Shown: piece after piece, positions 1 through 64,000 of the stretch
Layout of the letters: the number at the start of each line of letters is the position of its first letter
How positions within the stretch are numbered: the first letter of the stretch is position 1
NCBI GenBank assembly: GCA_946699065.1
Contig: CAMPDV010000013.1
Coordinates: 1,116,001-1,180,000, forward strand
Direction: 5' to 3'
Length of the DNA stretch: 64,000 bases
From: Loxodes magnus
Lineage: Eukaryota > Ciliophora > Karyorelictea > Loxodida > Loxodidae
Program-made: the position numbers and the translations under genes
Notes under the pieces: generated by a model
Databases searched by the model: none
Told to the model about the DNA's origin: nothing
The model's input: only the letters and a program-made list of their open reading frames with translations

Positions 1-3000
1 GTATATTCTCTAAATTCTTAAGTTAATATGACAAAATGTACATGTTCATTATAGAAAGCCTTATAGGGTTCTTGCTTAGCTATAATAAATGATAAGCTTT
101 ATTATTCTTACTTAATCAAAGATAATACTTTTGAAAATTGCATAGCTACTTAGCATGGAGGTGTAGGTTATATCTAAAATGCAAATGTTACGTTTCATTC
201 AAATTTGTTCTCAAATAATATAGTTGCAGGTGAAGGAACGCTGATATCAAAGGGAGGAGCTCTAAGACTTGTATGTGACAATTAGCAAGTTTGTAATTAT
301 ACCATTTATTGGAGCAAATTTATTAATAATAGAATAACTAATAAGATAAGCGAAGGAGGAGCCATTTCATTTTAGGGCACTTTAGTACATTTAATACCTG
401 ATATATGAAGTTAAGAAATTTGCCCCTTATTCATTAATAATTTGGCATATTATGGAAATAATTTCGCTTCATTTGCATAAAAACTTAGCAACTAATCAGT
501 TAATGATGTTTTGGAGCATTGCAATTTAAATAATACAGAAAGATAATTAAGTAACATATTGCCTGGATTTTCTATTCCTGAAAGTATTTTATATATCACT
601 GATATATTTGGACAAACTGTAAAAACTGATAACTTTTCAACAATCTCCATTTTCTCCGAAGAAGCTGAACTAGCAGGAAAAACTAGAATATCAGCAGAGT
701 TAGGAGTTTTCGAACTGAAAGACATTATAATAAAAGCAAAGCCTGGAGTAAAAGTAAATATATAGATGGAAACAAATGCAATAGACAAATATAACTTATT
801 ATTTGATAACTAATTTAGCAATCAAATTTAATCTGTAGTAGATATTGAAAACTGCATTTAAGGATAAATTCTGATAGATTAAAAACAGTGCCAAAACTGC
901 CTTTACGGATAGTATTCTTTGAATTTAACTGATAAATTATGTAAAGAATGTATTGATGGAGGAAAATGTCCAGGAAGTGATTTGATTTATCCAATAAAAG
1001 GACGCTGAAGAGAAAATTTTACAGCTGAAATAATTCATGAATGCCCAAATAAAAACGCTTGCTTAGGAACAAAATTAAATTAAAGCTTTATAACAGAATA
1101 CCTTAAGACTTCAGAATCAAAGCATAGACAATAAATGTAAAATTAAATAAATTGAAAAGGAGATTGTAGAAAAGGTCATCGTGGAGTTATGTGCGATGTT
1201 TGCACAGAAGGATGAAAAAAAGATGGACTGAATATGTGCTAAAAGTGTCTAAGCCAAAATTTAACACTAATTTTAGCCTCAATTATTATTTTTCTCTTCG
1301 CAGCTTTTATCATTTATGTTGTAAGATAAACTTTGAAATCAGCTTACGATTAAGAATCTTATTACGGAGTTTACTTCAAAATATTTACCAACTATATGCA
1401 ATTCTCTATTTTAATTCAAAATTTCAAATTCAGCTGGCCAGATATTTTCGGCGACCTTTTCCAAATTAATGTTTAGTATTTTGCAGCAACAGCATCAATG
1501 TTTACAGTAGACTGTATTGTTTAGGAAAGCAATAAGAAATATTATAGCAAAGTGGTAGGTAACATGTCTGTACCTTTTATCATTTTATTTGTTACTTTTA
1601 TAACTCTCCTTATTTGATCTCTTAAAAATAAGAAGGCATTCAATAAGTCAGTCTTCATTACAGTAATGAGCGTAGCTTTTTTCTAAATCTATACTAATCT
1701 CATTTTAATTATTTTCAGTGCATTCAGTTGTTACAACATCTCAGCTGACTTTTAAGTTCTTAATGCATATACAGATATAGTATGCTGGAAAGGAGAACAT
1801 CGCTAATTTGTGCTTATTTTTGCAATGCCTGGACTTGTTTTGTACGGAATTTTGGTTCCCTTTATAGTAGTCTTACATCTTTATAGGAATAGAGAAAAGA
1901 TAAAGTCTATATTAATAAAATCGTAGTTTGGATTTCTGACAATAGGATATAAAGAGTAGTTCTATTTCTGAGAGTTTGTTAAGATGTATGAAAAGTTTGC
2001 AATAACCTCTATCTTTATATTCTTATAAAAGACTACTATTGTTTTCTAGTTCTGGTGCTTAATTATGGTACTAATTGTTTGTATAGGTCTTTAAGTTAAA
2101 TACAAGCCTTTTATAAAAGCTGAACTTAATAAATTAGAGCTTATCTATCTAGTACTATCAGCTTTTATACTATACTTAGGCATTTATTTTGATTCAGGTT
2201 AGCGCTATCTCATTGTAGACTTAATTGCCTTTATTTTGCTTATTGTAATAAACGGATATTTCATCATAACCTGGTTACATTATTTAACCATTGAATTTGG
2301 CTACAATGTAATTTTCGACTCTATGAAGTTCTATTTCCGATTATGCTGCTTCAAGAAATTCGTAAAATTAAATGAATTAGTAATTAAATGAGAAAAGCAA
2401 GACTAAGATATTTAAGATAACTAAGAAAAGGAATCTAAACTTTTAAAGATAAAGAAGAAACTTTCTTCTATGTTCCTCAAAAGGAAAGTAAGTCAGGAAC
2501 CTATCTAAGAAAGTGACGGATATGACCTATAAATATAAAACAAGCACAGCAAGAAACTATATGAAGTATTTAAGAAAAAGCAAATGGTTAATCTAGTAAA
2601 GCAGATAGAATGATTGCTAGTATACGATGCGAGCTTAATTGATCTTTATTACTGAAACACATAAAATTTATTCTTAACATAGTAAGAATATTGAAACAAT
2701 AGAATTAAAAATTTTAATAGAAACTATAAACAAACTAAAAGGAATTAAAATTACCAACTCAAACAAGAATACAAGCAAATATCTTCTAAAATCATTGGGA
2801 AAACATAAGTAAGCGATTACTAATTTACACTGCAAATGGAAGAAAATTAAAAGCAAGCTGATGAGACAATGATTGTAGAAGATATTACAAATAAAACAAG
2901 CACAGAAATCACTTTTTCAAATAAATTTGATTAATCTTAACATAAACTTGATCCATAAATTGTCAGTCACGAATAAATAGCAAATCAACTTACTAATCTG

Positions 3001-3321
3001 AAAAAGGGAATGAAAATGGACAGTAAAAATTATCAAGCTTAATTTCCAAATGCCTAATGAGCATTTGAAGATCCTCAACAAGAAAAGAACTTTAATTAAA
3101 ATATTGAAATTGAAGAATTTATCTTAAATGACTCAGATAAATCAGATGACTAGGAAGAAGTAAAATAATAAGAGTGGGAAGAAAAAAGATAAATGAGAAG
3201 TAAAAAAAATAAGACAAAGAAAGAAGAAAAGGAAGATGAAAACTCAAAATAAAAGAAGAAAGAACGGAAGAAAGACAAGAAGAATGCGAAAAAGAATGAA
3301 AATAAGGATCTAGATAGCTGA
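1..3321 (+). CDS. Beta-helix / Cys-rich multi-pass membrane protein (5' end off window)
   Basis: One frame is open from base 1 to TGA 3319-3321 (about 1,106 residues), with TAA/TAG read as Gln and TGA as Trp. The N-terminal part has glycine-rich repeats (SKGGALRL, SEGGAISFQGT) typical of parallel beta-helix, Pmp-like surface proteins. A Cys-rich stretch follows (CQNCLYGQY, LCKECIDGGKCPG, CDVCTEGW). About seven hydrophobic segments lie between nt 1258 and 2300, and the tail is a long, Lys/Glu-rich, presumably cytosolic region. This architecture is common among large ciliate surface proteins of unknown function. In-frame TGA encodes Trp, e.g. LLIWSLKN near 1617. The true start lies left of the window. 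It converges with the receptor kinase. The specific function is unknown; the architecture call is fairly secure. Confidence 0.85.
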
Positions 3322-4309
3322 TTAAAACTTACTCTATATTAAAAATTAAAATTTATATGTTCTTAACTAATTTCTCTTTCCTTTTGTTTCATTAAATGAA
3401 ACACTTTAAACTCTTTCATTCCAAATTTATTTTCATCCTAAATAAGAAGCTTTAGTTTTACATAAGCCAAAATGATATCTAAAAGATATGATAGAATGCT
3501 AAATCTTAAGTGTAAATGCTAAAAGTCTATTTAAGTATTTTTTAATTTGGAATGACTGTAATTATTAAATTTAATAGGCATATGATTAAGAAGCAATGTA
3601 TCAAGTCAACTATACGAATTAATTTAATTTAGAATCTTTCTTGCCTTTTAGTGATGTAATAAACTTATCAAATATATGACTTTTATTAAAGAACTTTGGA
3701 AGATATCAATAATCTTATGAATTATAATTAAAATACATTAGATAGTAAAGTATTAAAATATGCAAACTGCTAATTATTTTGATTACCATATAGATAAAGA
3801 TAGTACCTTTAGTATTAATAACTATAATAGCTATATAGTCTCATAGACTAGAAATAATAATGATGGACTATTACTTCTAATTATCTAAATTACTATTTTC
3901 ATCCTTTAGAATTTATACATTTACAATTAATTATTTTGTAAGAGCTTCTTAAATATCAAACATATGGTTGAAAAAATATCTATTTAGTTATTTATTTAAA
4001 ATACTTAGTAAGTCAACTTTTAGAATCTAGCAATCTAATAGCTAATTTTTAAGATATTTACAAAATAAAATAGAAATATACATTCTTTATAGAGCTTAGG
4101 TAGATTACTTATAATCCTTCACTTTTGGTTAATAAATAAATAATTAAATTAAGTTTTTAAGTGCTTTTTGTCATAAAAAAGTCATTCGAAATATTAAAAG
4201 CAGCATTTATTTTCTAAGACTGATTCAGTTCTTCTAAAGTTATTAGTTTTAAGCTGGATATAGTGTTAGGAATTTAAAGTTAGGTTATCTTTCTCTAACT
4301 CTAAATGAA
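3322..4309. other. Spacer between convergent genes
   Basis: Very AT-rich DNA with no recognisable gene on either strand. If the receptor kinase ended at its first in-frame TGA (complement 4013-4015) instead of the TAA at 4310, about 300 bases of this spacer would be coding. The hydrophobic, low-complexity translation argues against that. Confidence 0.6.
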
Positions 4310-7300
4310 TTAGTAGATTGAAGATTGTTTGTATATATTTTGCAATTCTTCACTATCTATTAACGAACTTGGCTCTAGACGCATAATTATTTTCAGTTTT
4401 TCTAATACTTAGTCAATGTTTATTCTTTTTTTTGGGTCAGTCTTAAGGCAACCTTTTATGAGCTATAAAAGCTCACCTTTAATGGCTTGACATATCTAAG
4501 GTTTTTTATATTATACAAGAAATTTTATTACCTCAAATGGATCTTTTCCTTATCATGGTCTTTACAAACTGATTAATTCATTAATAATGCAACCAAAAGC
4601 TCAGATATCCACTCCAGTGTCAATTCCTTCACTTGAAAACACCTCTGGAGCCATATAATAGCAAGTTCCTGTAGTTTGACTTTTAAAAGATGTGTTCCTT
4701 TTTTTCTCATTGAGAAACCTACTAGTTCCAAAGTCAGTTAATTTAACGTTTAGTTTCTTATCAAGCAAAATATTTTCAGGCTTTAGATCTCTATGAATTA
4801 TTTATCTCGAATGGGAATGTAAACACTAAATTCCCTTTGCTATTTAATAAACAATTTGCAGTCTCTAGTTCAACGTTATCGAAATTCCATACTCGCTTTA
4901 ATGAATCAGTTTATCAAGCGAATAGTCCATAAATTCAGTAACAGTACAGAAAGGATGCTGAGTTTCTAGACTTATTCCAAAGAGATTGCAAAACCTATTT
5001 GACTTAAGTTCAAGGATAATAATAAGCTCTTTTAGAAAATTCTAAAGCTGCTCTAAGTCTTATATTCCTACATTTGCTATTTTAATTGCCACTTTATTAT
5101 TATTTATTCTTCCTTCATATACAGTTCCAAATCCTCCTTACCCTACTTTTCTTATCAGTGACTTCTATATTTTATCATAGGTTAAGATTTATACTTAGGA
5201 GTTCTTTAAATCTTCCAAAATTTGAAGATAAATCTCGCTAACCTCCTTAAGGTCTATAATTTTGTATAGTTTTAAGAGTTTATTTCTTTTAATCTGCTTT
5301 CGTCTATATAAATAGCATTGAAGTAAAATGAAACTTAAAGTTACGAAAACTATTATTATGGTTATAATGAACCACAGATTCTCTAATTTGGTATCTCTAC
5401 TTTCTATAATTTCTTAATACATTTCCATCTTTTTCTTAGCTTCCCAATATTCAGGAAAATAAACTTGCTAAGTGCAATTGTTACTGTTATAGAGTTAAGG
5501 CCAATTGTAAAATGTAATATTCAGATATTTTAGTTTTCAAATGTTGTATAAGTCTGTGTAATTAAAAGGCTTAATGAAATTCTACTCTCAGCATTGAGGA
5601 TTTAATCGATTATTTGAATGACATATTCCTTAGTCTTTTTTGTAGACTCTTTTAAACTGCTAAATGAAAGCAAGAGCTGCTTCGGAACCACTGGATGCAG
5701 TACAATAAGCTTCATCTTTGATAGGAGACTTAGAGCATATACATTATAAAATCTTTATCTTCTTTTCATCATTTTTAGACAAACAATCTAAATCACTTTT
5801 ACACTACCTGTTCTACTATTCATAAGCACTTTCACAAAGAGCATAGCTTTGGTTTTAGCGAAAGCAAGTAAAGGATTTGCAAGCATAGTCGAGATTATCT
5901 TCTATGCAATGAGAGTCTATTTATACTCCATTTTCTAGAGTAAAGTATTCAACACATTGGTGATTTCTGCAAACTTTGAAATTGACACACTAGAAATCAT
6001 TATAGCACTAGCTGCTATCATTATCAATTTAATCCTTACATTTATATTTATTTTATTCATCTTTAATGCATGCCAATCCTATATCACATCTTTAATCATC
6101 GTTACCACTACAGCTCTAACCATACGAAAGACCCTAACATATTCCATTTTCACAAGTCAAGTCAGCAATGCACTATAGCGAATCACTACATTTATAACCA
6201 GGAAAGAAAGAAATATCCTTATCTTTTCTTATTTAGCAAGTTGAATTAGATTCAAAAGTCTAAGGACAGTAAGTGCTTTATTAAGAAATTTCATTGCAGG
6301 GCAAGATTTCATATGTTTTATTGCTATTTCAGTAAGTTATACACTAATTAAGGAGAAAATCATCTTCATCTCCACATTCATAGGCTGAACACTGTGACTT
6401 ATTCTGGGTAAGCAAGGCATAAATGTTAGCTGAGTAATAATAATCGTAGAATTTAGTTTGCAAAATACAGGAATCTTGGATTTATATCTAAATAAGGAAA
6501 TTACCTCTGGATAATTAGCATATTCGTATTGGGCAATAAAGTAATTAAATATATCATCCAAATAAGCTGTCTCTTTAATATTAAAAAAGTAGCAAAAGGG
6601 CATAAGTCTTGTATAAGTATGACATATTTCTTAGCTAATGTTTATTATTTTCTTAGTAGCTTCAATATATTTAAGCGCTTGCTGAGAACCAGTATAATTC
6701 GCACAGAAAGCTTTTCCTTCTAAATTGCATAAGCATTAGCTTTGATATTCTATTCCTCATTGGTTCGTTACTTTACAGTCTTGGTCATATGCACATATTC
6801 TATCATCATAGTAGTAAGGAGGAATGCATCTTGCAGTTTAGTTATCAAGTTACTGGCATGTAAAAGATTCACAAGCTAGGTTACAATTTGTAAATTTGCA
6901 TAGAAGTTAGCTTATCTATTAAAAGCAAGTTCCTTTTCAAGTAAAACCATCGGAAAGAGAGAACATTTAAGTGCAAACACCACTAATACATACTGCTGAG
7001 TTTATACACTAATAATCGTTACTACATCCTTCTTCCGCATTTTTTAATTATTTAAGGCAGAAGTTGCTAATGCATGCTAGTCCTATATTGCATTCCGCAG
7101 AGCTTTAACATGATTCTCCAATTTTTTTACCAACACACTATGATTGATCACATTTCTAACTTAGGCAATCTGAATTATGTAAGCAGTAACTTCCTGGAAT
7201 AAAGTAAATATTATTATTAAATGAATTTTAAAAGCAATGGTTAGTATTATATTCTTATTATAAATTACACTAAGTAGATGTTGGACATTGCTAGTATACT

Positions 7301-9417
7301 CATAAGTCTTATTCTTCATAATATTAGGCACATTCATATTACGCTAATGATGTGTTTAAAGTCTCTGCACAGCTATAATAAGAGCAATTTAAATCAGGAA
7401 AATACTTCATTTAATACCCTTATTGAGCGTTTCAATAATCTTTAAAATATTATTCTTAGACACAATATTCAGCAAATCCAGGTTCTAGTGCAGGAAAATA
7501 TTCCCATCTATATTTGTTTATATTAAAATCTGCTAAAATTTCTAAATGTTGATGCATACAGAATTCTCAGCATTTTACATCTCTTCTTGCAAAGCTATGA
7601 CATTTGCCTTAATCCATTTTTGATATAGTTTTTAAGCTTTTTATATAAGCTAATGTAACAGCATCTCCTGTTTGAGCAGAGCAATATTTGAAGCCTTTGC
7701 TAAAATCACATCTAAGCTATGAAAATATCTGATAGTTCTAAGAGTTAAAATTTCTACAGAATCATTTATTATCTGTCTTAATGAAATTCTCTTTAGATCT
7801 AAAATTGTATGAACAGACTAGGGCAGAGTTAAGAGGATTATCGGGTTAACACGTGAAAGATTCACAAGCATATTCTTCCTTAGAGGTAGTGTTACAAGGA
7901 CTATTAAGCTTGTCTCCTATTCTAACAGAAAATAATTAAATACATTTATTTGCTCTACAGATAGCTGAATTTACACACTAGTAATCATTCTCACAGTTTC
8001 TTTAGTCTTTTTCTGTCAAAATTTACTCTTAACATTTATACCCTTCAAGAGATTTAATACAAGCTAAGCCAACTTCGCAGGAAGAATCACTTTAATTTTA
8101 GCATATTTCTCCTTTATTTTTTCCAACGCATCTGAAGTAATGGCATTAATTACTAAAGCAATCTGAATCTTTTCTGCAGAAAATTCCTGGATAATTTTTT
8201 CCAATATCCTGATAATCGATCTACGTGCAAGTAATGTTTGAAAATGAATTATTAGATGGGCATTAATAATCCTTAGAGCATTTATTAATAGTGACTTTGT
8301 TTTCCTACACTAAAATACAATCCTTATAAACGTTCAACGAGCATTCAAATTTGAAGCATTCTTTCGCTGTTTATTAAAGATAGTTCTTAGCTTTTCAGAA
8401 ATTAAAGGTATTAGAAGTTGGTTAATCTATAACATAAAATACGCTAGAACTTATATAACTTTCATTAATTCCATAGTTGAAAAGAGGGAGTCAGTTATAT
8501 AGCATAGTACCGCTTAAAGTAGTTAATGTGATATCATCAAGTCACAATTCAGCACATTCAAAACTGAAACGGAATGTAGACAAGCATTTTCCATTTGTCT
8601 GATTGATATAAGGAATAATAAAATTAATAAAGTCATTTCTTAAGTCATTAGCGAATTAAGAAGACATTTATACTTGGCAGTATTTATTTGTCGTATTTGA
8701 TATTGAGCAGTTACATTAAGCGAAGTCTCCTGATTCTAATTAGCATTATGAATCACTTTTACATTCTTAAGGCACTTAATATTTCATCTTTGGTGATTCC
8801 TAGCATGTCTTTATTTTATCTCCTGCACAGTACATACTTTTACAAGCTAACGAAAACTCTTCATAAAAGTATATCCTATTAAGACTATAATTAATGTTAC
8901 AAAGCTGAATTTCAATGTATTATGCATATTCTTAAATACAAGAAGCACCATTTTCTAGGGAGAACAAATTTACACAGCTGTTTCCATCGCATACCAAATC
9001 ATTATTACATTCGTTAGATCATTAGCACTTTCCTCCTAAAGGTTTTTAAGGGAGACACCTAGTTTTATTATTGCAAAAGTATCCAATATCACACTAGAAG
9101 TAATGCTAGCATTATTCTTTATTTATCCCTTTGCATATATTATTTTCACATTACTAAAACTGGCACTCTGAATTTCCTTTACATCTAAATCCAGGAGCGT
9201 ATTACGCAAAACTACAAAAACTTTGGTATCTACTAGTGTACATAGGACAAAAGTAATAATTAGGATTTACGCATTCATTTACATAAATAATGCTAGATTA
9301 GATATCGCAGTCTATGCATAAATAGTCTTCTTTAATAGTCTGTGATTCTTTGAATGCTCAGCATTAGCCATTAGATCTTTATAGATATAAGCAGAGAACA
9401 ATCAAAATAAAAGGCAT
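4310..9417 (-). CDS. Receptor-like protein kinase with Cys-rich ectodomain
   Basis: Model complement(join(4310..6487,6505..9417)), 1,696 residues. The start [19 protein letters not shown] is a signal peptide. The ectodomain runs to about residue 1337 and holds many disulfide-type modules ([33 protein letters not shown]) resembling Dickkopf/EB Cys modules. One TM helix lies at about 1339-1363. A kinase domain follows from about 1420, with [23 protein letters not shown] (Asp1538), DFG (Asp1556) and MAPEVF; all catalytic residues are present. The kinase looks TKL-like by eye. A 17-nt GTAA..TTTAG intron (complement 6488-6504) is required to keep frame. Gln codons are CAA up to ...YKQSSIY, then TAA..TAG..TAG follow, so I end it at TAA 4310-4312; the first in-frame TGA is at 4013. 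It probably transduces an unknown external signal by Ser/Thr or Tyr phosphorylation. Confidence 0.9.
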
Positions 9418-15903: not shown

Positions 15904-16524
15904 ATGAGCTTTTTTAAAATTTTAGTTATTGGCGAAGTGGCGACTGGAAAAACCTCTTTTGTAAACCAATTTGTGAATAAAACGTTTGATTAAACTTACA
16001 AAGCTACAATTGGGTGTGAATTTGGATTGAAAGTTTGCGAAATTAATGGTTAAGCGATTAGAATTTAGATGTGGGATATAGCTGGATAAGATAGACTTGG
16101 AGGAATTTCCAAAGTTTTTTGTCGCAATGCTAAAGGTGCTCTAATTTTATGTGATATCACTAGACCTGAAACATTAGAGTAAGTTATAAAGTGGAAAGAA
16201 TAAGTAGAAGATATTATGGGTGAAGAGAAAATACCAATGATCCTTTGTGGAAACAAATCAGATCTTCTAAGTGTTGAATAGGTATCTCAGCAGAGTTCAC
16301 TATTGAAATAGCATGCCAAAAAATCAACCATGATAGATGCCTATATAACTTCAGCAAAAACGGGTCATAATGTAAATGAAGCAGTTTAGAAATTAATCTC
16401 TACAATATTATAGAAATAATAAGAGGTTGGAACTTAGTAGAATAACACTGAAAATTTAGCTGAAGCTTTCAAAATTGAAAAGTAGAAGTCCCAGACTAAA
16501 AAGAAATAGAGTTGCTGTTCGTGA
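15904..16524 (+). CDS. Rab32-like small GTPase
   Basis: 206 residues, no intron. GTPase motifs are clear: P-loop GEVATGKT, G3 WDIAGQD, G4 NKSD and G5 TSAK. WDIAGQ with the following CDITRPETLEQVIKWKEQ is characteristic of the Rab32/38 branch, which acts on lysosome-related organelles and mitochondria-associated membranes. The C terminus is ...KKKQSCCS followed by TGA at 16522-16524. The Cys-Cys pair is the expected geranylgeranylation site, so termination at this TGA is well supported. A TAG only five codons earlier is read as Gln. The switch Gln is present (AGQD). Membrane trafficking is the expected role; the cargo cannot be inferred. Confidence 0.93.
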
Positions 16525-21376: not shown

Positions 21377-22282
21377 TCACTGAGAGAAGTTAACCATAGC
21401 CTTTTCAACCTCTTTTAAATAAGACTTAGTTTTTTTAAGTCTTTCCTAGTTTATCTAGGTTTTCAGAGCTTCTTATATTTGCTAACTAATTTTACTCAAA
21501 TTTTGCAAAATAGCTTACATTTTTTCGTTGGTAGATTAATAATTTTTTTATTCACACATTTTTTGAATGATTACTTCAATACTAAGATCTATCCTATGTT
21601 TGATTAAGGATAAATTCAAGCAAGAAAGAGCAATCAAACTAGGCTTGTATATAAATATAACATCACTCAGAAAACTTCGATTGCTATAGTCTATTGCCGT
21701 TGCTTGCAATTACTAAAACTGAGCTTCATCAATTATCTTGCTTGTGATTTCTAAGAACGCTTTTAAACTAGTATAAGGAGTGTAGCATCAGTATTCAAAA
21801 TTAATCCCTTTCATTATCTTAATTTCACCTTCAACAAGCTCTTCGATTTTTGTTTTACATGCTACTGCGAAATCTTATAGATTGAAAGGCTATTCCTCTA
21901 TTTTATAAGCCAAAAGAATACAAAATTTCGTTATTTTTTCAGGATCATGAAGAGTTAAATTTTTTAAGTAAAATCGCTTATAAAGTGAAAGAGCAAGTTG
22001 AAGCAGATCATCCTTCTATCAGTCTTCTTTAGTTTTGGATTTGGATAATATGCTAATCATCTTTAATAGCTAGTAATTATGTAAATTCATCATATCTTCT
22101 TCTGAAGGAGGCTTGTATTATTTCAGGTTATAAGTAGTTTAAGGAGAGACATAAGAAGGTGGATTTTCTAATCTTTCTATCTATTTATAGAAACTTCTGG
22201 TCTATTCTTGCATTTTTATCTAAAATGCTTGCTCAGTGAAAGTTCATCTTTTCTTCTAAGAAGAAGAGTCATACAAAGACAT
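21377..22282 (-). CDS. CCNH: Cyclin H (CDK-activating kinase / TFIIH subunit)
   Basis: 301 residues, single exon, TGA complement(21377-21379). The N terminus MSLYDSSSQKKRWTF matches the characteristic cyclin H start (SSQKRHWTF); its Trp is a TGA codon at complement(22244-22246). A first cyclin box follows (ALSLYKRFYLKN, ITKFCILLAYKIEEQ), then EGEIKIMKGINFEYWCYTPY, which corresponds to the EXXLLXXLXFHLXVHXPY pattern of the family, then a second, more divergent box and a C-terminal coiled coil. Cyclin H pairs with CDK7 and MAT1 to phosphorylate cell-cycle CDKs and the RNA polymerase II tail. The length is close to that of other cyclin H proteins. Confidence 0.9.
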
Positions 22283-22805
22283 TTTTAGATAATTACACTA
22301 TTTCACAACTCTATATACTTATTAATCAAATTCTATTACTACTATCTAATAGCTACTTATTGATTCTGTTTAGAATTCCTGCTAGCTAAACTTTACTGAC
22401 TTATCTTAGTTAAACTAGAGACATCTGCAACTGATTTAGAATCTTATAGAATGTATTAAGCAATATGCCTTATATATTAGTAAAGGGGAAGAAGATAGTT
22501 GTCTATATAAAAGATAAATCAGTTTTAGTATATTTATGATATAATAAATACGTAATCTTAATCCCTTTGTATGGTGTATTTGGTATTTAATTCAATATTA
22601 ATATGAATAACATCTATTTCTAATTACCCTTTATCTCTATCTGAGAGTGAATATGTTACTCTTATATAGTATTTATTTTCTATATTATTAGTAGATTTAA
22701 ATTGGGTTAAGAAGAAGGAAGTGTGTATCAGTTTCAGAGTAATGAATGATTTAAATTAGGAGAGGATTTTAAAGGTCTTTAAGTTAGTAAATAAGATATT
22801 TATAA
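22283..22805. other. Divergent intergenic region
   Basis: AT-rich DNA between the divergent starts of cyclin H and the ubiquitin protease. No motif is recognised; it should contain both promoters. Confidence 0.5.
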
Positions 22806-25800
22806 ATGGAAGCTTATCTTTCTAATTCGTCTTTAAAAGAGGAAGATTTGGACTAAGTCAATTAACTAATGAAAAGTAGTAAGTTTTAAGAAGCTGAAAA
22901 AATACTTAGCACATCTATTTCTAATCAGCCTGATAGCTTTTAAATGCTTTTTTAAAGAGCTTAATGCTACAAATAATTGGGGAAATACAAATTAGCTGAA
23001 ACTGATAGTGTTAATGCTTTTGATTTGCTGAACAGATAGTAGCCTAATAGTATAAAGGATTGATTAATTAAGATGCTAAAATTGAGAATTTAAATTAGAA
23101 TGAAGCTTAAAAAGCCTTAATAGATTATAGAAGATTGTGATGAACTCAAGTAGAAGTTATAAGATGAGGAGGAGCTAATATAAATAGGCTAAATCACTAA
23201 ATAGTGGTAAAAACAGATAAAAGAAGATATGGGAGAATAAGCTTTTCATGAAGGGAAAGAGATAAAATAATCAATGAAAAAAGAAAGAGTCTTAGGTGAA
23301 TAGTATTATATAGTTGATGCTAAATGATTCTAGAATTGGTAAAACTTCCTTTTTTCTAGGTTTGAAAGTAGTTTAAGCTAAAAAGAGAATGCTGAAGATT
23401 AGGTCAATTCTCTATAAAGAACTGACTCAGTTGAAGTGATTCTATCTCCTTTACCTATAATTAGAAAATCTAGTAGTATTAGAAGCTTTGCTCATCCTGG
23501 TCCAATTGATAATACTGATTTAATACAACATAACGTGGAAAATGAAATACTGACAGATAACGATAAGAAATACGAAAGCACCAACGTTCCGTTAAAATAA
23601 TATCTATAGGAGAATATTGATTTTGTTTTAATTCCATCAAAAGAGTTTGAAAAGCTTTTAAAGAGATTTAATTGCATAGAACCAATCAAGCGTCCTGCAA
23701 TAATGTCAGAGAATGGGAATATAATTGTTGAAATCTATTTAATGAAAATATAAGCAGTCCTACTCCATAAAAACTTCCTCAATACTAAAAATGCATATGA
23801 ATCCAAAGGTCTTATAATTTAAGTACTAATTAGCAGAAAAGATAAAGCAAAAGAATTAAAGTAGAAGATTCTAAGATTCTTTAATTAGACCTAAAAAAAG
23901 TAATTGGCAATGGACTGATTACGACTATGGAAAATTAACCCTAACCAAATAAAATTAGAGTCCTTAATTGAAAGCATTAATTAGATGATGCAAGAAGCCT
24001 AGCTCTAGAAGTAAAATTAAAACTAAAAAATCCGACCAATATATGAACAAAACTTGGTACAAATTGAAGATGATATTATGCTAGAAAGGGCTGAAATAGC
24101 AAATGAGGATGTAATTATTTGCGATTTCAAGTAGTAGATAGGATATTTTTATCTAACTGATATCCCTGATTAATAATGCTTTTAATGCAAAAATCCAGCA
24201 AGACAGTTAATTGTCTGCTAAAAATGCAAGAAAATCAAATATTGCAGTGAGTAATGTTTAAACAATAACGCCAAGGAACACAAAAAAATATGCAAGAAAC
24301 CTAAAATAAAAAGAAATCCTATGTGCAATTGATTATAACTAAGCTTTCTACCTTTTGCTTGTACCTGTTGCAAATAGTAAGAAGATGATTGAGAGGACGA
24401 TGAGATTATACTCGAATTTCCTCTAGTTTGAAGTCCTAATGCAAGAAATGGAATAGTAGGATTATAGAATTTGGGAAATACTTGCTACATGAATTCAGGA
24501 TTATAATGCTTGACAGCGATAAAGGAGTTGTCTATGTATTATTTATAAGGAAATTTCCTTAAAGATATTAATTAACAAAATAAGTTTGGGACTTAGGGGA
24601 AGTTGTCTAATGTTTATACTGAGCTTTTACGAAATTTATATTCAGAGGAAGCTTCAGTTTACTCTCCGTGAGTTTTTAAACGTGCGATTGGAAGGATTAA
24701 TCCAATTTTTCAAGGACACTAGCAACATGATTCTATGGAGTTTTTAAACTGCTTGATTGATAGCTTGCACGAAGATGTTAATTAAATTACTAACAAACCT
24801 TATATTGAAGAAGTGCACATTGAAGGAAAGTCTGATTAAGAATCAGCCTAAGAATCATGAAATAACCACAAAATGAGAAACAAATCAAAAATAGTAGATA
24901 TTCTACATGGATAGATTAAATCAACTATCACATGCAATTAATGCTAAAAAATCTCTATAAGATTTGAACCTTTTAGCATTCTGCCTGTTCCCATTCCTAA
25001 TCTTTCTTAGTTTCAAATATTCGTTTATTTCGTAAGTAATGTTCTTTCAGCTCTTCCATTAAAGACAGCAGTAGTACTATAAGGTGATAGCAGAATAGCC
25101 TAGTTAAAGTAATAGATAAAGTAAACGCTCGATTTGTCTTAAAACATTAAGCTTGAAATAGTTGCTTTGAAATTGATGAAGTTCTAATGTATTTGCTAAG
25201 ACAATTCCTATGTAGAATAATACAAAAATTCACTCGTTTTCGCATATTAGCTTGCAGATGATTACTCTTCCACTGATTATGTATCTATAAGAGTAAAGGT
25301 TCACTAATAGCTAAATAAGCAAAAAGACGCAAATAAAAGTTCAAAGTCTGTGTCATATCCTAGAATTTTTTGATTTAAGAACAATACTACCTGCAGAGAT
25401 GTCTCAATTAAAATTTTTACTTACTTCTATGGAGTATGAAATGAGTCAAAGCAAGATAATATATGAAAATAAGGGAATTTTTAGTAAATGGAGAAGGTAT
25501 TTAAATAAAAGTTTATTGACAATGAAAACTAAAAGTACTATAGCTTAAACATTATAAACAGCTCAGGAGTTACTACTAAAAAATGTTTTCAGAAGTAAAA
25601 AAAAATGGCATGCGATTTTTGCTATAGAATTGATTGCAAAAAATGTCCGTTTCCTTCGCTAACTGAAATGCCTATTTAAGAATGTATAAGTAGAGCAAAG
25701 TCATTTCAGAAGCCTTTCAGACTGGTATTAGAATGAGATTACATGATAAAGGACAGTTCTATTATGAGTCTAGATTTTCTTAATTAATATGAAGATCATA

Positions 25801-26276
25801 AAAGTGTCAAGAATCAGTAGAAAATTGAGTCCAAAGAAGAAGTCACATTGCATTAATGTTTTTAACACTTTGCAAAGGAAGAATAAATAGAAGGAGGAGT
25901 TTGATATTGTAAAAACTGTGATAATAAACCTTCAGCTAACAAGAAAATGGATATATACAAAACTCCTAAATACTTAATAATCTCTTTAAACAGGTTTTCT
26001 TATAGAGGATAGTTCCAAGAAAAAATACACACACCAGTTAATTTTCCAATATAGAATTTAGATATGAATTAATATGCTATTAAAAGCGAAAACTCAGCTT
26101 ACAATTTATACGGGATTATCAATCACTTTGGAGCAGCTAATGGAGGACATTATACAGCTTATGTGTATCACGAAAGTACTGATAAATGGTATGAATTTAA
26201 TGATGCATAAGTTTCTAAAATGAATAATTTAACAGGTAATAATGCTTACTTGCTATTTTATAAGAGCAAAGTTTGA
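22806..26276 (+). CDS. Ubiquitin-specific protease with DUSP and MYND domains
   Basis: 1,156 residues, single exon, TGA 26274-26276. From about residue 120 there is a DUSP-like domain containing GEQYYIVDAKWFQNW. A MYND-type zinc finger follows (CFQCKNPARQLIVCQKCKK..YCSEQC..HKKICKK, about 458-500). Next is the USP catalytic core: the Cys box GLQNLGNTCYMNSGLQCL (catalytic Cys560), HQQHDSMEFLNCLIDSLHED, USP zinc-ribbon cysteines, and the His box YGIINHFGAANGGHYTAYV (His1115) with WYEFNDAQV near the end. All catalytic residues are present, so it should cleave ubiquitin from substrates. DUSP suggests the USP4/11/15 group; a MYND finger upstream of the core is less usual there and recalls plant UBP15-type enzymes. 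Many Trp and Gln residues are TGA, TAA or TAG codons. Confidence 0.93.
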
Positions 26277-33900: not shown

Positions 33901-36366
33901 GGAGGATTTGTAATTAGTATTTACAGCCAATATTGGTTTATTAATAAAACTGGCTTGCCTATTAGTCTTTAGCATGTAGAAGATAACTTTTTTTATGAGG
34001 AACTATCTCTGCCTTTCGAAGTTGAGGGTTATATCATGACAGAGTTGCTTACAAAAATGGAAACAAGTAAGTTTATAAAATATTTTAGAATCGCTTAAGA
34101 AAGCAACGCTTTAGGGACTGGGCTTTGAAACAAGAAGTAAAGAAGTTGAGATTGAAACTTACAAACCCTGACTTATGTTTTTAGAAGAAAATAGAATTGG
34201 ACTTTCTTCAGTGCTTTAAATAAAGGAATCCTTTAATTATGTTGACAGCCCTGAAAAACTAATTGTGATGTTTTCTGCTTAGCAAAATTATTTGAATTCC
34301 TATAGTCTCCTTAGAATTGCTAACTCATAGTGAAGTGAACCTATTCGTATTTCTAAATTATCTGAAGACATTATGCCCATGAGTGATGTCATTCAAATAA
34401 TAAAAATCCCTGAAGATATAGTTTAAGCCTCTATGTCTTAACGACCTTAATGTGAATATGAAATTATAATGAAAATTTAAAATGCTGAAGATGAATTTTT
34501 CAGAACTAAAAAGATTTAATTGATTCCAAGATTTTTGATGACAAATAATACTAAAATGATAATAGTAATAGCTCAATATCCTATTTCTTCAGCATGTCTA
34601 GGAGTTGCAAGGTTGCTTCCAGAAGAAACTTCCGCTTTTCATTGGCCAGATAGGTTTAAATCAAGATAATTGCTAATAAGATTTGAAGATGCTGGATGGT
34701 AATGGAGTGGTCGTTTTAATATAGATACATATGGAGACACTTTCCTACGATTAACTAACATATATTCACATTAAGAAGCTATCCTTCATATTACTGTAAG
34801 CTTTTCATTTAGAATACTCCATAAGACTCTTATTCAAAGATTACGTTTTAAGAAATTTCTCATCTTCCCCCATACAGAATTGAAAACTTCTCTATAGAAA
34901 ACATTAAATTCTACCAAAAGTAGTGTATTGAGCAGTCTAAGATACTTAACCCTTATGATACTACTTCTTATGCCTGAGACGAACCACTAGGAAAGAAAAT
35001 AATTAATGCTTACATTGTACAGCCTAGCTAGGAATAAATACTAATTGGCAAATTTGATTTAGAAGACGTTCCTTAATCAGGAAGTGTAACTCTCTAGAAG
35101 CATGGAAGTCATCCAGCTCATTGTATAAACTGGAGAATTTAAGCTTAAGGGTTCACTAAAGTATTAACTCTTCAGCATGGAGAAGTCGATTAGGTTAAAA
35201 CGACTCTTTAGCATTTAGATACCTTTTTCCATTTCAATTTGATTTTGGATTCAGTTGGAATATCAGTAATTGATCCTTAGCCAAGTGAACTTGTTTATAT
35301 TCATCTTTCTAATCTTCAGTTTAGCTTCTATAAAGCTAAGAATAGCGACTCTTAGTACGACTTTTAAATTGAAGATATGTAAGCTAATAATTAACTGTAT
35401 TCGGCGAAGCTTCCTGTCATTTTTAAGTTTTAGAGCAATTGATGGGGCCCTGGAATTAAATTAGGAGTTCAAGTAAGGAATTCACCTGAAATCATCTATT
35501 TAAAGAAGTTCATTTTGAAGCTAAATCCATTCTACCTAGTTATTGATGCTTAACTAGTTGATTTATTCGTATAGTTCTACAAACACCTTGCCTTTGATGT
35601 GATGCTTTAGAAGTAAAACTAAGGAAACTAAAGAAATATCTATGTGGATAATTTGGTAATTAAGCAAATACGAGCTAAGATTAAGTGTGAAGGACTTCCC
35701 TAGGTAATTCTTTAGAAGATTAAGCATCTTCAAACTTTAGTCCAGATTATATCCAACATTAATATTGGAAATGTACAAATCGCTAAAATACAAGAGTAGC
35801 ACCGCTTAACTACTATGTAAAGCTTAACTTAACAGCTAGGACATCATTTTAAAACTGAAATGACTCGCAATCTAAAATCATTAATATTACCTAACAAGCT
35901 TATTTTTAGGATCTATGCAATGCTTAGAAAAAAGCTTCAAAATAATATTAATGCTGGTAGATAATTAAGAACTAGACCTCCTAGAGTATTCCGTGAATCT
36001 TAATTACATCCTTATAGTTTTGAAGAATCACTTGGTTTATATGTGCTAAGCAAATTATCGGAAGGTGCTTACATGTTTGAAGGGTTAAAAGGTCACTCAA
36101 CTTTGACAAACAAATAATAAGAAATAGTTGTAGTTACTCATAAGAGGCTCCTCATAACAAAGCTTAATGAAGTATAGCCATTATGAAATGTTCCTATTAA
36201 TGACATTGTCAATTTTGAAATTGTCAACAATCTTTTCAAAGTTTACTATATCGAGGGTGAAGGATGCAAAATATCATGCAGAGAAATTAGTGGCACTTAG
36301 GAAGAGTTAGAAAGATTGTAGAAATGGGTTTTTGAGGTCATTAACAGTTAACATTTAATATTTTGA
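27916..36366 (+). CDS. VPS13: VPS13-family bridge-like lipid transfer protein
   Basis: Model join(27916..34066,34089..34795,34813..36366), 2,803 residues. The N-terminal chorein domain (WSLLGEFLEDFSNKELQV, FPLDVIRGEIQELKINFPW, KGLYIVCAP) opens a very long beta-rich middle typical of the hydrophobic lipid channel. Near residue 2250 is the VAB/SHR-BD type region (FHWPDRFKSRQLLIRFEDAG, DTFLRLTNIYSH), and the C terminus has the APT1/ATG-C-like motif RTRPPRVFRESQLHPYSF followed by a PH-like end. Two introns (22 nt at 34067-34088; 17 nt at 34796-34812) are needed to hold frame. VPS13 moves bulk phospholipid between membranes at contact sites. It ends at TGA 36364-36366, although a TAA four codons earlier (36349-36351) could also terminate. 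Slightly shorter than human VPS13A. Confidence 0.93.
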
Positions 36367-36821: not shown

Positions 36822-37244
36822 ATGACTAAATTTATAGTTAACTAAAGCATTTCCACGTGCATTCTACTCTTTCTTTTCTTCGTATTATCTACAGTGGGTT
36901 AAGACTCTTCTGAAGAAGCTCCTTAATCCAAAGAACAAATTAAGGAATGTATTAAGTAATGCGATCGGTTTGAAAATTAAGATATTATCTAAATTTGTAC
37001 GATGAAATGCTCTAATCCTCAATGCTTCTAAGAAGTATACAGCGATGTTAAAACAGTCCAAGATTTGAAGAATGTTTATGGTTCAGATTAAGTAGCGAAT
37101 CAGAGAGATAAAATAATAAGAATAAAAAAATACCAAGATTGTATTAACAGAGAATATTTCAAAAACCACCCTGAAGAAAAATAAAAAAGATTGAAATAGC
37201 TTAATCAGGAACCTAATAAAAACAGCAAGAAAGAAGATTTTTAA
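36822..37244 (+). CDS. Small secreted Cys-containing protein, unknown
   Basis: 140 residues, ATG 36822. The N terminus has a hydrophobic signal-peptide core (STCILLFLFFVLSTVGQ). The mature part carries spaced cysteines (KECIKQCDRF, CTMKCSNPQC, QDCINREYF), which recall small disulfide-bonded or twin CX3C/CX9C-like folds, then a Lys/Asn-rich tail. I end it at TAA 37242-37244 (...NSKKEDF), which is followed by in-frame TAA TAA. The first in-frame TGA (37473) would add 77 low-complexity residues. No family recognised; secretion is inferred from the leader only. Confidence 0.65.
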
Positions 37245-39766: not shown

Positions 39767-40445
<679 letters not shown>

Positions 40446-54614: not shown

Positions 54615-56243
54615 ATTTTAAGAAGAAATTCTATTTCTAAATTTGTGATTAATTACTTGTTTAGTTTAAAAAACGATTTATTTTTAGCTTAAACCATCAT
54701 TTAAAAAACCACTTAGAAAGAAAGCATTCTGAATACATAAAAATGTATTAATATACTTTAGAATGCCAATTTATCCTCTAAATCATCTGTATTTGGTTTC
54801 TTTTTATTTAATATAAATAACATAAACTTTTTATGTAGAGACGAAGGTAGCTAGTATCAGTCAGTAATATTATTATGTTTAGCATATCTAAAGTATTAAG
54901 GCTTATTACTTATATTACTATACTTGATAATTCACTTTCAATATAACTATTAAAATGTAAATATCTTTGCACTTTAATAATGAAGGCTTTTGTGTATTAT
55001 GACCTCTTTATTTTAAACCGTAAATGTATTCATATAAAACTAGATTATAACTATGATTATAACTATTGCTAATACTTAAGATTTAGTTAACATTGTCAAA
55101 GATTAAGCATCATTTATACTAGGTAGAACTTATAAAGCTCCACATCATTAATACATGTTAACCCTTAGGTAAATTTGTCTCTTTGGATACATTAGTTAAA
55201 TTGAAGTAAAGTTGAATATAATTAACAGTATAATAAGGGAAGGCTAGCAAGTCTGACTTACTATATTAACTACCTTTTATCTAATTTTAAACTAGTAATA
55301 TTCCAAGAAAGTGTTTATAGTGTAAACATATTGATAATTTTACAATGGCACTTATTTCATTCTACCTAACTAAATTAAATAACTAAGATTAAAGTAGAGT
55401 TATAAAAATAAGTTCTATTAGAATCTATTTTTACAGAGCTTTTTTACTTTAATTGATTAATTATTATATTAAAATATTTATTAACTCATTACAGATTTAG
55501 ATAAATTTAATGGTTTAGATACCTTTTAATATAACCATAGTCTATTTTATTAATTTTCTAGATATCTAATAATTGTTTATTTTGAAATATTTCATAGTCT
55601 GTACATTAATCTATTTCTCTTATAAGATATCGAAATAGAGTACCTAATTATTTAATTTTGCTTATAAAGCATACCTAGTTAGACCTTTATTTGTTACTAA
55701 TTAAATCTAATTTAAATTTAGTTTGATATAAATTATTTTAGTGTAAGTGTCTTAGTTTAGTTCTTTTAAGTATCATTATAGCAGTAATAGCTTCTTCACT
55801 ATAAAGGTTATTATCTCTCTAATTGCTTCTGCATATCCATTCACTAACATATTTATCCTATACGCTTTTCATTAAATTTATGATCCAGTGATCTATAAAA
55901 TGCTTTATTGATTCAGGGTTATTAGACAATAGTTTAAGGAGTCTTCAAAGTAAATAAAATTAGGATAAAGATAAAGTTTAATTAACTGAATCGAATAAAT
56001 TATAAGCAAACCATTCATAAGTAGCATAATAATTATGCTACTTAGCATTCTTACATTATTAAGGTATTACACTAAAATGCTTCTCTTAATTGTCAATTTT
56101 GAAAGTATTACTAAGGGAACTAAAGAAGGTAGAATTAAAAATAGTGAGTAGATAATTAAATAAAAGGAATCATAATTAGATAAAATCTATTTATACTTAA
56201 TCCTTTAATTATCATTTGATTATTTATATAATAAAGAAAATAA
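54615..56243. other. Long divergent spacer
   Basis: About 1.6 kb of AT-rich DNA between the Myb gene (minus) and the GPCR-PIPK gene (plus). No coding-like frame or repeat recognised. Confidence 0.5.
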
Positions 56244-58307: not shown

Positions 58308-58476
58308 AACCTTAACATCTTAATATAATAGGTATTATTCTTAGTCTTATTTACATATATTAAGCATATTACATTAAAAGGAAGGCATCATAGTAGTAGA
58401 AAGTGTTGATATGTAAATTAACTTAATGTTAAAGTAAAAAAGATTAATAAAATTATTCCAGTAAAATTGAATGAAG

Positions 58477-60395
58477 TCAAATTTTCTTATATACATTTTT
58501 ATCATTATTGCATAACTAGCACGAACTGCAGCACCTTGATTAGTCTTCTGCATAATCATCTGTCACTGAAGATTCACTTAATATTTGCACATCTTCATGA
58601 TTTGATCTTTCGCTTGATTCACCAGAATTATCTTTATTCTACTTAGCCTTGGAAAATCTTTCCGATGTTGTCTTATCCAAAAGCATATTTTTACATTAAA
58701 CGCAAAGAAGAACTCTAATATTAAAAGGCTTACAAAACAGGAAAAAGGAAAAGAAAGGAAATTAGAAACACAAGAAGAGAGAAAACAATTTCTAAGCTGC
58801 TTCAGGCAACTGAAGGTAGATTTGCATAGTATGCAATAATTGTGAATAAGCCTGATATTAAGCTTGAAGCTACGAAAAACACGTAAAAAACGAACACTCT
58901 ATGATTACTAAAAGCATATCAAAACTTACACTTCTCCAACGCAATTTCGAATCCAAGGACAGTGATGATCAAACTTTTTAACGCATTTATTGCAACAATG
59001 GCAATGTCGAGAACGAGGAGGTCGAAAAACAATGCAAGTTGGACACACTAAACTTGGATCAAATTTTTCATATAATTACTAAGTATTAAAAATTACCGAG
59101 AGTGTAGTATTAGGATTTGTCTTTATATAACCAGGATCCTTATTAACAATGTAAACGAAAATTGACACTGTAGAGATAATAATAGCAGCATGGATATGGG
59201 CTTATATCTCGTTTATCGCAGGTAAAATGAAAAAGAATAAATATAGGTTACCTAGAGAGAAAAGAATAATGAACGTTAAAAATGAGCAGTAATCTTCGTG
59301 ATAAGGAGCTAAAGGAGTTTTAAATCCAATTTTTTCTAAAAATCCAGGTTCTTTTAGTAGAGGAATTAAGGCAGACATTTAATTTTCATTTGCAATATCC
59401 ATTGGTGTGCGACCTCTAAAATCAACAGTATTTCTATTAGCTCCTTTCATCAAAAGGTATCTTACTATCCTTATATTTCCTGCCATTGTACCAAGATGAA
59501 GTGGAGTAAGACCATCTTAATCTCGACTTTCCACAGGGTGGCCTCAACTTAATAGTAATAAAACAGAAAGCTCACAACCAAGATAAGCAGCCCAGTGAAG
59601 AGGAGTAGATCCATTATGGTCTTATTCGTCAATAGAGCAATTCATTTCTTTTAGATATGCCATAACAATTACTTAATCAGCTTGTGCTGAAACATGCATT
59701 ACGGTTAATCCTTAAGAATTTTTCTAATTCAATTAGCATCCTTTTTCTACCAGCATTTTAACTAGTTACAAGTTACCTTTAAAAGCAGCAAAGTGTAAAG
59801 CCGTAAAACCCTCATTTGTTTTCAAATTTAGGAATCTTGGAAGTCTTTGCTCTATTTGAGACTTCTACTCCTCAAATTAAATATCTTAAGGAGTTTGACT
59901 AAAAGGAGTCTAAGACACAGCTTATGGACTACTGGTTTTGCGTGCACGAGGTCCTTCCATTTATGAAAGCCTCACTCAATCTATTAAAAAGGAAGCAATA
60001 TGAGTTTAATTGTTTAAGCAACTAACATGCAAACCGGAATATTTATTAGTGTCACATACAACAGTGACATCAATTTTCGCAGCAATAGATTATACATCGC
60101 GTAAGCAACCTTCTTTACAGGCTTTTAAAAATTTTTCAACTTATGATTCAACTGGTGATACTCCTCTAGATTCATCTGTTGAAATTACATTATCAGGCAA
60201 AGGAGAGGCATTTTGAGATTCTAGACAAGAGGGAGTTCCTTTGTTGTTAAATTCCTATTATTCTATAAGCTTCCTTTGCTCGTATTACTTTTCATTTTGT
60301 TTTTAAGAAGGATTTTCATCCTTTTCAGAATGAATCTCTTCCTCAGGAGTTAAAAGCTGAGCTTTAATCTTTACGCTTTAGCGAGGAGATTCCAT
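58477..60395 (-). CDS. Ankyrin-repeat DHHC palmitoyltransferase
   Basis: Model complement(join(58477..58714,58734..58907,58930..60395)), about 625 residues. A polar N terminus is followed by about six ankyrin repeats ([60 protein letters not shown]), four hydrophobic segments, and the DHHC Cys-rich domain ([35 protein letters not shown]) with the catalytic Cys near residue 479. This is the Akr1/ZDHHC13/17 type, which S-palmitoylates membrane and signalling proteins at Golgi or other membranes. A 22-nt intron (complement 58908-58929) follows NCVGEV and a 19-nt intron (complement 58715-58733) precedes the tail. An 18-nt GTAATTT..CTTAG (complement 59079-59096) may be a third. The tail is Ser-rich, ending in Cys-rich SRCCSSCQLC; stop TGA. 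Confidence 0.92.
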
Positions 60396-60629
60396 GTTTT
60401 TAAATAAATTAAAACAACAAAACTATGGCAATTAGCCATTTAAATTAAAAACGACTATACAATTCTTAAGAAGATTAAAAATTAAATTGCTTTAATTCCC
60501 TATTACCAGAATAATATTCAACTAGATATTTTAAGATAGCTACCTTTTGTATGGTGCAACATTAGAAAATTAAACAAATATATTTATGTTTGCTGCTTTT
60601 ATAAATAATCTGTAATTAATAAACAAATT

Positions 60630-61950
<1,321 letters not shown>

Positions 61951-63314
61951 TTAGTGTAAAATTATACGTAATATAATTTATCTTATTGTATTACTTGAAA
62001 AACTATTTCTAATATTTAAACTAAAAACACGCAACTCACAACACAAATTTTCAGAATAATGTATTTGAATTACTCAAACCATATTGATTATATTAGACTC
62101 TTATTAAAATGGCTGACTATTTTTGATAGCTAAATATTTAAGATAATCTTTGCCCTCCTTTTATATTTTCATTCAGTCATATAAATATAGATACCTTAAA
62201 CAGCTAACCTATTCAATAAAACCACTCTATTAAGTTACTTGAATAGCTATAGATGTAAATAGTTTTAATTTGGATATAAATAAATGCTTTTAGTTTCATA
62301 ATTGAACTTCTAGTATTTAATGCTCAATACTATTTTGAAAATAAACTAGTTACTTTCATTCAAATTATTAGCTAGAAATAGATAATTAAATTTACTTTTA
62401 AACTATTAACCTTTTACAATTTTATGAAACTGAAAGACTAAAGAGGATATGATAATAAGAGAAAGAATCAAATTATTATATTAGGGAATAATATTATTTT
62501 TATTTTGTTACTAATTACATAATAAGATACTAGTATACTTCAATTATACTCTTCTTCAGCTTATATATTTCCAATAACTATTCAGCACTCCTTATAATTT
62601 ATTAGAGGAATTTTAAGCTATTTAATAAGTTACTATTCTTTAATTGACCATTAAGGAGAGAGCTATAATAATAATTAGTAGCTTATGAAAGTTTTTAGTA
62701 AATAAGTATGTAAATATGCTTTAAGTATAGTTTCTAAAGAGTTAAAGTAGCAATTTAAAAATTTGAATACTAGCAATAAATACAGAATTAGGATTATTCT
62801 ACTTACTTGTTTTAATGCTTTATAGAAATACCTATACAATATGTTATTTCTAGCATGCTTGTAATATATTTAAATAGAACTAGTACATTGAGATAATTAT
62901 TCATAGAGATGACAACTCTTAAAATAGTGATAAATGCATTGGTTATCAAAGATATGCTAATATTAAGTTTAGAATCTTTAAAAGTAGACTATTATTTACA
63001 TACTTTCATTATATAAGTTTATTTACTTTGAGTGTCCTATTTATGAAATTATGATCTTCTATGTGTCATAAGTCAAATAGCTGAGATATGTAAAAATATT
63101 AGCACTAACTATTTTTAAAGAACTAGACTAAATTTTGAAATAAATGGATATACTTAAGCATTAGCCTAGAATTAAATACTTATCTATCTCATTAGAATTA
63201 AATGATAAAGAACTGATAGGAAGCTTAGAGTGCTATTAATTGAAAGTTAATAGTAAGAGAATAAGAAGCAACTTGGAGTTAATTTAAAGTGCTTTATTTT
63301 CTTAATTTTAATAA
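61951..63314. other. Divergent AT-rich spacer
   Basis: About 1.4 kb between the MAP kinase start (minus) and the MORN protein start (plus). No gene or regulatory motif recognised. Confidence 0.5.
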
Positions 63315-64000
63315 ATGGGAAATATCAATTGTACAAACTGCTCTTGTGCAAAAGAAAATGAGCAGAAGGGCTAACTGGAGTCTGAAAGAGGGGAGAAATA
63401 TACTCCAGCTCCTTAAAATATAGATGTTCAAGCAGCTAGTTAATAGTAGAATTAGAGGGATTATTAGAGCAATCTAAAGCAAATAATTAAAATTTAATCG
63501 TGATGAAGAGGATATTAAACTAGAAATCTTTTTAACCATTTAAGATCTTAATTCAAAGGTAATAATAAATACTTTACGGCTGATGAAAAGGCAGAAACTA
63601 TAGCCTCTGTTGGATAAGATTTTACTACTGGTGAAAGAGAGTAAAGGACATATACGTTTAAATCTGGTGCTGTATATAGAGGATAATGGAAAGATGGTAT
63701 GAGAGATGGATATGGTGTATAAACTTGGCCTGATAGTGCAAAATTTGAAGGGGAATGGAAGAAAAATAAAGCTCATGGGCACGGGCGTTTTTGACATGTT
63801 GATGGAGATGTTTATGAAGGTAAGATTTTTTAATAATTACAGGAGAATGAAAAGATGATAAAGCAAATGGTAAAGGAGTATACACTCATATAAATGGAGC
63901 AAGATACGAAGGAGATTGAAAGGATGATTTACAGCATGGATTTGGTACTATTATTTTATTATAGGAATTGAAACTTGGGCTGATGGATCAAGATATGAAG
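63315..64000 (+). CDS. IQ + MORN-repeat protein (3' end off window)
   Basis: Model join(63315..63819,63843..63944,63965..>64000), 214 complete codons visible. The start MGNINCTNCSC fits N-myristoylation (Gly2) with adjacent palmitoylatable cysteines, so membrane anchoring is likely. A Gln-rich stretch leads into an IQ motif (IIKIQSWWRGYQTRN; both Trp are TGA), a calmodulin-binding element. MORN repeats follow: YRGQWKDGMRDGYGVQTWPD, FEGEWKKNKAHGHGRF, YEGEWKDDKANGKGVY, YEGDWKDDLQHGFGIETW. MORN repeats bind membranes or act as protein scaffolds in protists. A 23-nt (63820-63842) and a 20-nt (63945-63964) intron each split a conserved Gly codon and must be removed to keep the repeats intact. The right edge cuts the gene. 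Confidence 0.9.

Follow-up and report, generated by a model that had tools for sequence, protein, structure and literature searches.

How does a cell tell where a protein ends when all three standard stop codons also occur within its genes? The question is raised by a stretch of 64,000 nucleotides from the ciliate Loxodes magnus (GenBank assembly GCA_946699065.1, contig CAMPDV010000013.1, positions 1,116,001 to 1,180,000 of the forward strand), here called the window, whose genes had been predicted from the sequence alone to read TAA and TAG as glutamine (Gln) and TGA as tryptophan (Trp). The window is almost certainly nuclear DNA of this karyorelict and uses its published context-dependent code, NCBI table 27. 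We hold with great confidence that UAA and UAG specify Gln in the window, while UGA specifies Trp within genes and stop at gene ends. Masked alignments and Pfam scores support the predicted sense meanings, both for the window families and for the further genes tested, and table 27, which the original prediction had named, is the right code; the prediction was nevertheless incomplete in leaving the terminator unstated, as TGA closes 37 of the 42 gene ends read. Table 27 is stated for Loxodes, with UGA both sense and stop (PMC11441545). The main finding is a code that is already published, and what is added is modest: a list of candidate UAA stops and a selenocysteine (Sec) case in Loxodes magnus. 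The genome-wide searches were made in an assembly of 705,730,643 bases in 7843 contigs.

Codon meanings from masked homology

In a test free of bias, TAA, TAG and TGA were masked as X and the translations searched against solved structures. Homologues were recovered for the window's mitogen-activated protein (MAP) kinase exon (E = 8.8e-50), a second kinase (1.5e-35), a ubiquitin hydrolase (8.5e-77), cyclin H (1.2e-12) and a Rab GTPase (5.5e-29); the sixth window query, the ankyrin part (59286-60000), had no match among solved structures. Outside the window, two very similar eRF1 genes with intact frames lie about 35 kb apart on contig C196, and the masked product of one of them (L002, 436 residues) matched solved eRF1 chains at E = 4.5e-153.

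The window tally comprised seven alignment blocks. These used two of five homologues for the MAP kinase, one of two for Rab, and one of five in each of the remaining cases (second kinase, hydrolase, cyclin H). The family alignments with codon-by-position counts that had been proposed as a check on the prediction bear it out: TGA stands opposite W in 8 of 11 cells, representing 6 of 9 distinct window codons (the MAP kinase exon was compared with two homologues), and TGG does so in 3/3. Since the window families do not conserve Gln, its assignment has to rest on conserved proteins; in masked eRF1 and a histone H3 variant, TAA/TAG lie opposite Q in 12/24 positions (TAA 8/15, TAG 4/9) and CAA/CAG in 5/12 (CAA 4/9, CAG 1/3). 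Across 1342 homology-supported codons (window, eRF1, H3 variant), TGA provides 6 of the 12 Trp codons and TAA/TAG 67 of the 90 Gln codons; the claim that TAA and TAG supply nearly all Gln is therefore overstated, the share being about three quarters.

Pfam scores were likewise best with TAA, TAG and TGA read as Q/Q/W among the rival codes tried. The kinase domain reaches 113.9 bits under this reading, compared with 112.2 for Glu, 106.0 for Tyr, 103.3 with TGA masked, 102.4 with TGA as Cys and 98.0 with all three masked; eRF1 domain 2 scores 147.3 bits, compared with 142.8 for Glu, 137.5 when masked and 136.0 for Tyr.

tRNAs for the reassigned codons

ARAGORN found no tRNA gene in the window. 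Genome-wide, a Gln-type tRNA pattern with a UUA or CUA anticodon gave 186 matches and its reversed control none. The 100 among the matches listed all carry UUA, and a CUA-only form of the pattern had no match in the genome; thus, all 186 are UUA. ARAGORN called a tta anticodon in 10/10 loci tried, naming the gene tRNA-Stop, and 25 of 30 UUA loci have one common sequence, the other five being single variants. We take the body to be that of a Gln tRNA. This multi-copy tRNA would be charged with Gln and read UAA and, presumably by wobble, UAG. The tRNA-Gln search called for in the original prediction gave a UUA tRNA, and the pattern employed turned up none with CUA.

For UGA, 34 of 40 scored BLAST rows for tRNA-Trp(CCA) fall in a tandem array on contig C148 (about 155434-165068, L071-L094) with a unit of ~241 bases. 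ARAGORN called 13 copies in each of five C148 loci of 3 kb, and the tRNA body is identical in the seven loci read. The anticodon stem, UUCGA versus UCGAC, has a broken top pair, U26-C42 in gene numbering, leaving four pairs (read by eye from the tRNA layout; the gene call is ARAGORN's). A UCA-anticodon pattern fitted to this tRNA-Trp body had no match in the genome. The best explanation for Trp at UGA is the CCA tRNA whose anticodon stem is shortened, rather than a cognate UCA tRNA; the check on UGA decoding thus turned up the four-pair array and no UCA counterpart. As a near-cognate, this tRNA would read UGA as Trp. The U26-C42 motif has been described for Amoebophrya and is said to match that of Condylostoma (PMC12005148), and a short-stem tRNA-Trp in Loxodes is stated with reference to Swart et al. 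(PMC13092985, PMC12005148).

Two other search routes were set aside. The first Trp pattern (GGTAG) hit just a copy on contig C110 whose stem has five pairs and whose T-arm is odd, and BLAST with that copy led to the real array. With a generic tRNA family, the search gave 63 scored rows, and ARAGORN called tRNA-Lys at the centre of each of the 30 loci submitted to it. The C110 loci (L065, L066, L068, L069, L070) and one on C7736 (L067) form a tRNA-like family with similar bodies and differing anticodon arms (CCA, CAT, CCT); by eye, all except L068 have an extra T-arm base.

Weighing the code

Several observations weigh against the table 27 reading. Three of the nine distinct window TGA codons stand opposite Y, R and I rather than Trp, and the sole TGA of a masked exon of Pelota lies opposite N. 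TAA/TAG face Q in just 11 of 76 window-family cells (TAA 5/44, TAG 6/32), so that the window by itself is weak support for Gln; this low rate arises because Gln is poorly conserved there, and CAA/CAG behave about alike (3/20; CAA 1/14, CAG 2/6). For the kinase Pfam score, Glu is just 1.7 bits below Gln. On the side of the tRNAs, the minimum-energy folds of the C148 and C110 molecules are not cloverleaves, and a smaller group of CCA genes on C110 keeps a complete stem of five pairs, so shortening is not universal.

It is important to consider what else could place stop codons in frame. That they reflect pseudogenes or errors of sequencing in a genome with the standard code is a reading for which no supporting point was found and to which we assign practically no probability: just one of 136 scored kinase-domain rows lacks an in-frame stop codon, and actin, histone, thioredoxin reductase and eRF1 matches cross such codons over their full or near-full length. 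The codons sit on conserved Gln and Trp columns and UUA tRNAs exist, so the data at hand already refute this explanation. A Blastocrithidia-like code, with UAA/UAG as Glu and UGA as Trp, would share the four-pair tRNA-Trp and draws on the near-equal Glu score of one kinase, but it is about as improbable: in eRF1 and the H3 variant TAA/TAG face Q in 12/24 positions and E in 2/24, and eRF1 domain 2 loses 4.5 bits with Glu. Furthermore, the glutamine of the eRF1 GGQ motif, which is needed for peptide release, is a TAA codon in both eRF1 genes.

eRF1 and the choice between sense and stop

Stop codon choice is governed by the TASNIKS and YLCxxxF positions of eRF1. Against the best solved chain, L002 has DAHGRAQNIKS for DEFGTASNIKS and TFFLCENTF for SLYLCDNKF; the motifs thus become RAQNIKS and FLCxxxF, and the second copy (L003) has the same two. 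These changes may weaken recognition of UAA and UAG. At a true stop, eRF1 with such altered motifs would outcompete the tRNAs because the transcript end is near; closeness of the transcript end as the factor that lets eRF1 win is reportedly a proposal of Swart 2016. The best match to PF03463 (L001), initially a candidate for eRF1, proved to be Pelota (TIGR00111, 196 bits; solved Pelota, E = 2.7e-81).

Which codon ends genes

The 42 gene ends read comprise 20 of 31 histone, 14 of 96 actin-family and 5 of 10 thioredoxin reductase matches (for the reductases, the five above the cut-off), together with three PF03463 matches (two eRF1 and one Pelota). They end in TGA (37), TAA (5) and TAG (0), a sample that is small for any rare use of UAG. 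The ends are not independent: many are paralogues, the actin ends L127-L130 are near-identical, and the reductase ends L120 and L122 are identical. For the reductases, the TGA at the Sec site was counted as sense, and the stop was set at the TGA that follows it; for the histones, TAA was allowed as the end for L103 and L106 only, once all 20 ends had been inspected by eye. Sequence after most ends is AT-rich.

A further 11 window segment ends were kept outside the 42, as most have no homologue fixing the end. Eight have an in-frame TGA within 14 codons, and three (4325, 36891-37238 and 59286) have none within 75. In the small protein at 36891-37238 the frame closes with KKEDF-TAA; another two TAA follow within six codons, and over 70 codons pass with no TGA in frame. 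This is possibly another TAA stop, at an end that no homologue fixes. In the actin family, about 40 full-length matches (contigs C266, C437, C711, C707, C524 and others) have near-equal scores; their matched stretch contains several TAG codons and no TGA, and four of their ends are among those read.

Both eRF1 ends (L002, L003) and all five reductase ends (L120-L124, four distinct) have a further TGA exactly three codons past the stop TGA. This spacing is not common to the other ends read, and the extra codon is possibly a kept back-up stop.

UAA as a candidate minor stop

The five TAA ends suggest that UAA is a minor stop and that table 27 may be incomplete. A code nearer that of Condylostoma (table 28), with UAA as an additional minor terminator in Loxodes, is slightly more likely than not. 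At these five ends TAA occupies the position at which paralogues stop or the frame closes: the actin-related genes C10 (HSKTF-TAA) and C193 (HYKTC-TAA), as against TGA at 12 other fetched actin-family ends; two H3 variants in GEKHLTDM-TAA, as against a sister in GEKQLTDV-TGA; and Pelota in NPEAFMI-TAA. The next in-frame TGA lies 23 codons downstream in C10, 40 in C193, 5 in L103/L119 and 168 in L106/L118 (the H3 variants) and 170 in Pelota. Sequence past all five scores as non-coding (-0.36 to -0.59 bits per codon, with a non-coding model trained on sequence after TGA ends only). In published transcripts UAA, not UAG, is depleted ahead of stops, and the median 3′ untranslated region of Loxodes magnus is 41 bases (PMC11441545); the depletion is consistent with UAA still being recognised to some degree close to the ends of mRNAs.

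Against this, the TAA ends are few, representing about four independent events, and no TAG end occurs among the 42. That every end other than TGA is TAA invites a rough estimate by hand (about four events, each with a chance of one in nine among single-base neighbours, or one in three with transitions alone), which does not enter into our odds. The Pelota TAA is 42 residues past the last Pfam-matched residue, so no homologue fixes that end. In C10 and C193 the 24 upstream bases scored are not coding-like either (-0.29 and 0.07), and four actin ends score in reverse (0.13 to 0.30 after TGA), so the coding score is weak there. For the H3 variant whose next TGA is five codons downstream, a short extension is fairly likely, and in C193 a GT-AG stretch of 40 bases runs across the end; short extensions in general, pseudogenes or loss of function, and unseen introns are the alternatives at these ends. 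The Loxodes magnus paper calls UGA the sole stop (PMC11441545).

Our literature search for stop-UAA in ciliates found no paper. The abstract of Seah 2022 in Peer Community Journal is said to suggest that a small minority of transcripts in karyorelicts stop at UAA. If the scales tip towards UAA termination, as we judge they marginally do, UGA would have three meanings (Trp, stop and Sec), UAA two (Gln and minor stop) and UAG one, which would leave table 27 incomplete.

UGA as selenocysteine

Three tRNA-Sec genes score above the Rfam cut-off, all three with anticodon UCA (tca), and 49 further matches fall below it. All five fetched thioredoxin reductase ends (four distinct sequences) read Gly-Cys-TGA-GGT-TGA-NNN-NNN-TGA, placing UGA-Sec two codons ahead of UGA-stop. 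Each gene has three or five in-frame TGA in the matched stretch, Sec site included, and those other than the Sec site are presumably Trp. Should this be so, all three meanings of UGA would coexist in one reductase gene. Condylostoma and Parduczia are already on record as using UGA for Trp, stop and Sec (PMC4967479); the main text of the Loxodes magnus paper (PMC11441545) contains none of the words selenocysteine, selenoprotein, SECIS (Sec insertion sequence) and selenium.

Downstream of the Sec codon, starting 41-42 bases past it, L121 and L126 as well as L124 and L125 have in common a stretch GTGAYTTACT...AGTAATGAG. By eye, this GTGA...ATGA stretch in two reductase 3′ ends looks like a SECIS core.

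Comparison with known codes

The code agrees with karyorelict table 27 as known from Loxodes magnus (PMC11441545) and Parduczia sp. (PMC4967479), in which UAA and UAG are Gln and UGA is Trp or stop; the AT-rich sequence after most gene ends adds to the likeness. It differs from the former account in the five candidate UAA stops, UGA being the sole stop there. With Condylostoma magnum (table 28) it shares the sense meaning of all three codons, context-dependent stops and UGA as Sec (PMC4967479), as well as the four-pair tRNA-Trp(CCA) (PMC13092985); however, all three codons act as stops in Condylostoma (PMC4967479), whereas here the 42 ends divide into 37 TGA, five TAA and no TAG. In Blastocrithidia, too, all three codons are sense and a tRNA-Trp(CCA) with a shortened stem reads UGA, but UAR is Glu and UAA the sole stop (PMC12153298). 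As for four-pair tRNA-Trp(CCA) suppressors in general, their CCA anticodon and unpaired U26-C42 are both present by eye in the Loxodes array; this tRNA may likewise increase UGA readthrough.

Genes of the window

Window segments were called by codon statistics, a crude procedure that merges exons, and segment codon totals were left unused. Translated under code 27, 12 of the 18 segments have a Pfam match and six have none; the families are kinases, Ras/Rab GTPase, cyclin C-terminal domain, ubiquitin-specific protease with DUSP and MYND domains, CCCH finger, Myb, ankyrin, MORN repeats and the VPS13 C-terminus.

All four TGA codons that the original prediction had cited with coordinates are in-frame TGA where it placed them. 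Two lie on the complement at 61296-61294 (ATR-W-YRAPE) and 61236-61234 (DM-W-SVG), both at Trp columns of the MAP kinase exon, which encodes the C-terminal kinase lobe (60840..61440, complement). The third (22246-22244, complement; KKR-W-TF) faces the cyclin H Trp in a cyclin H-like gene (21389..22294, complement), in which a second TGA faces Ile and the first in-frame TGA downstream gives the end ...NFSQ-TGA. The fourth (40151-40153, forward; S-W-Q) is read as Trp in a gene with a CCCH finger (39767..40315, forward), presumably RNF113-like, a label that we adopt from the prediction. Two MORN codons cited without coordinates were located as TGA at 63848-63850 and 63917-63919 in a protein with MORN repeats and IQ at the edge of the window (63117..64000, forward). 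They occupy Trp positions of the repeat motif; both are reached in frame after a frame shift, which suggests an intron.

The Rab32-like GTPase (15934..16518, forward) ends in ...KKKQSCCS followed by TGA, and the ubiquitin-specific protease with DUSP and MYND domains (22836..26246, forward) runs to the next in-frame TGA as ...LLFYKSKV-TGA. A protein kinase with a Cys-rich upstream part (4325..6406, complement) has two TGA in its kinase domain, one opposite W and the other opposite Y in the best homologue; the region 4325-9351 of the complement encodes large Cys-rich proteins, one of them fused to this type of domain, and is receptor-kinase-like. The Pfam scan under code 27 also placed a VPS13-like C-terminus at 34810..36324 (forward) and ankyrin repeats at 59376..59840 (complement; residues 513-667 of the crude segment 59286-61376).

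Outlook

The published code of Loxodes magnus has been re-derived from raw DNA and its published tRNA basis confirmed. If UAA does retain a minor stop function, the loss of termination would have come first at UAG, been nearly complete at UAA and least advanced at UGA. The named candidates, two actin-related genes, two H3 variants and Pelota, allow a test, from RNA-seq data already available, of whether eRF1 still recognises UAA to some extent.

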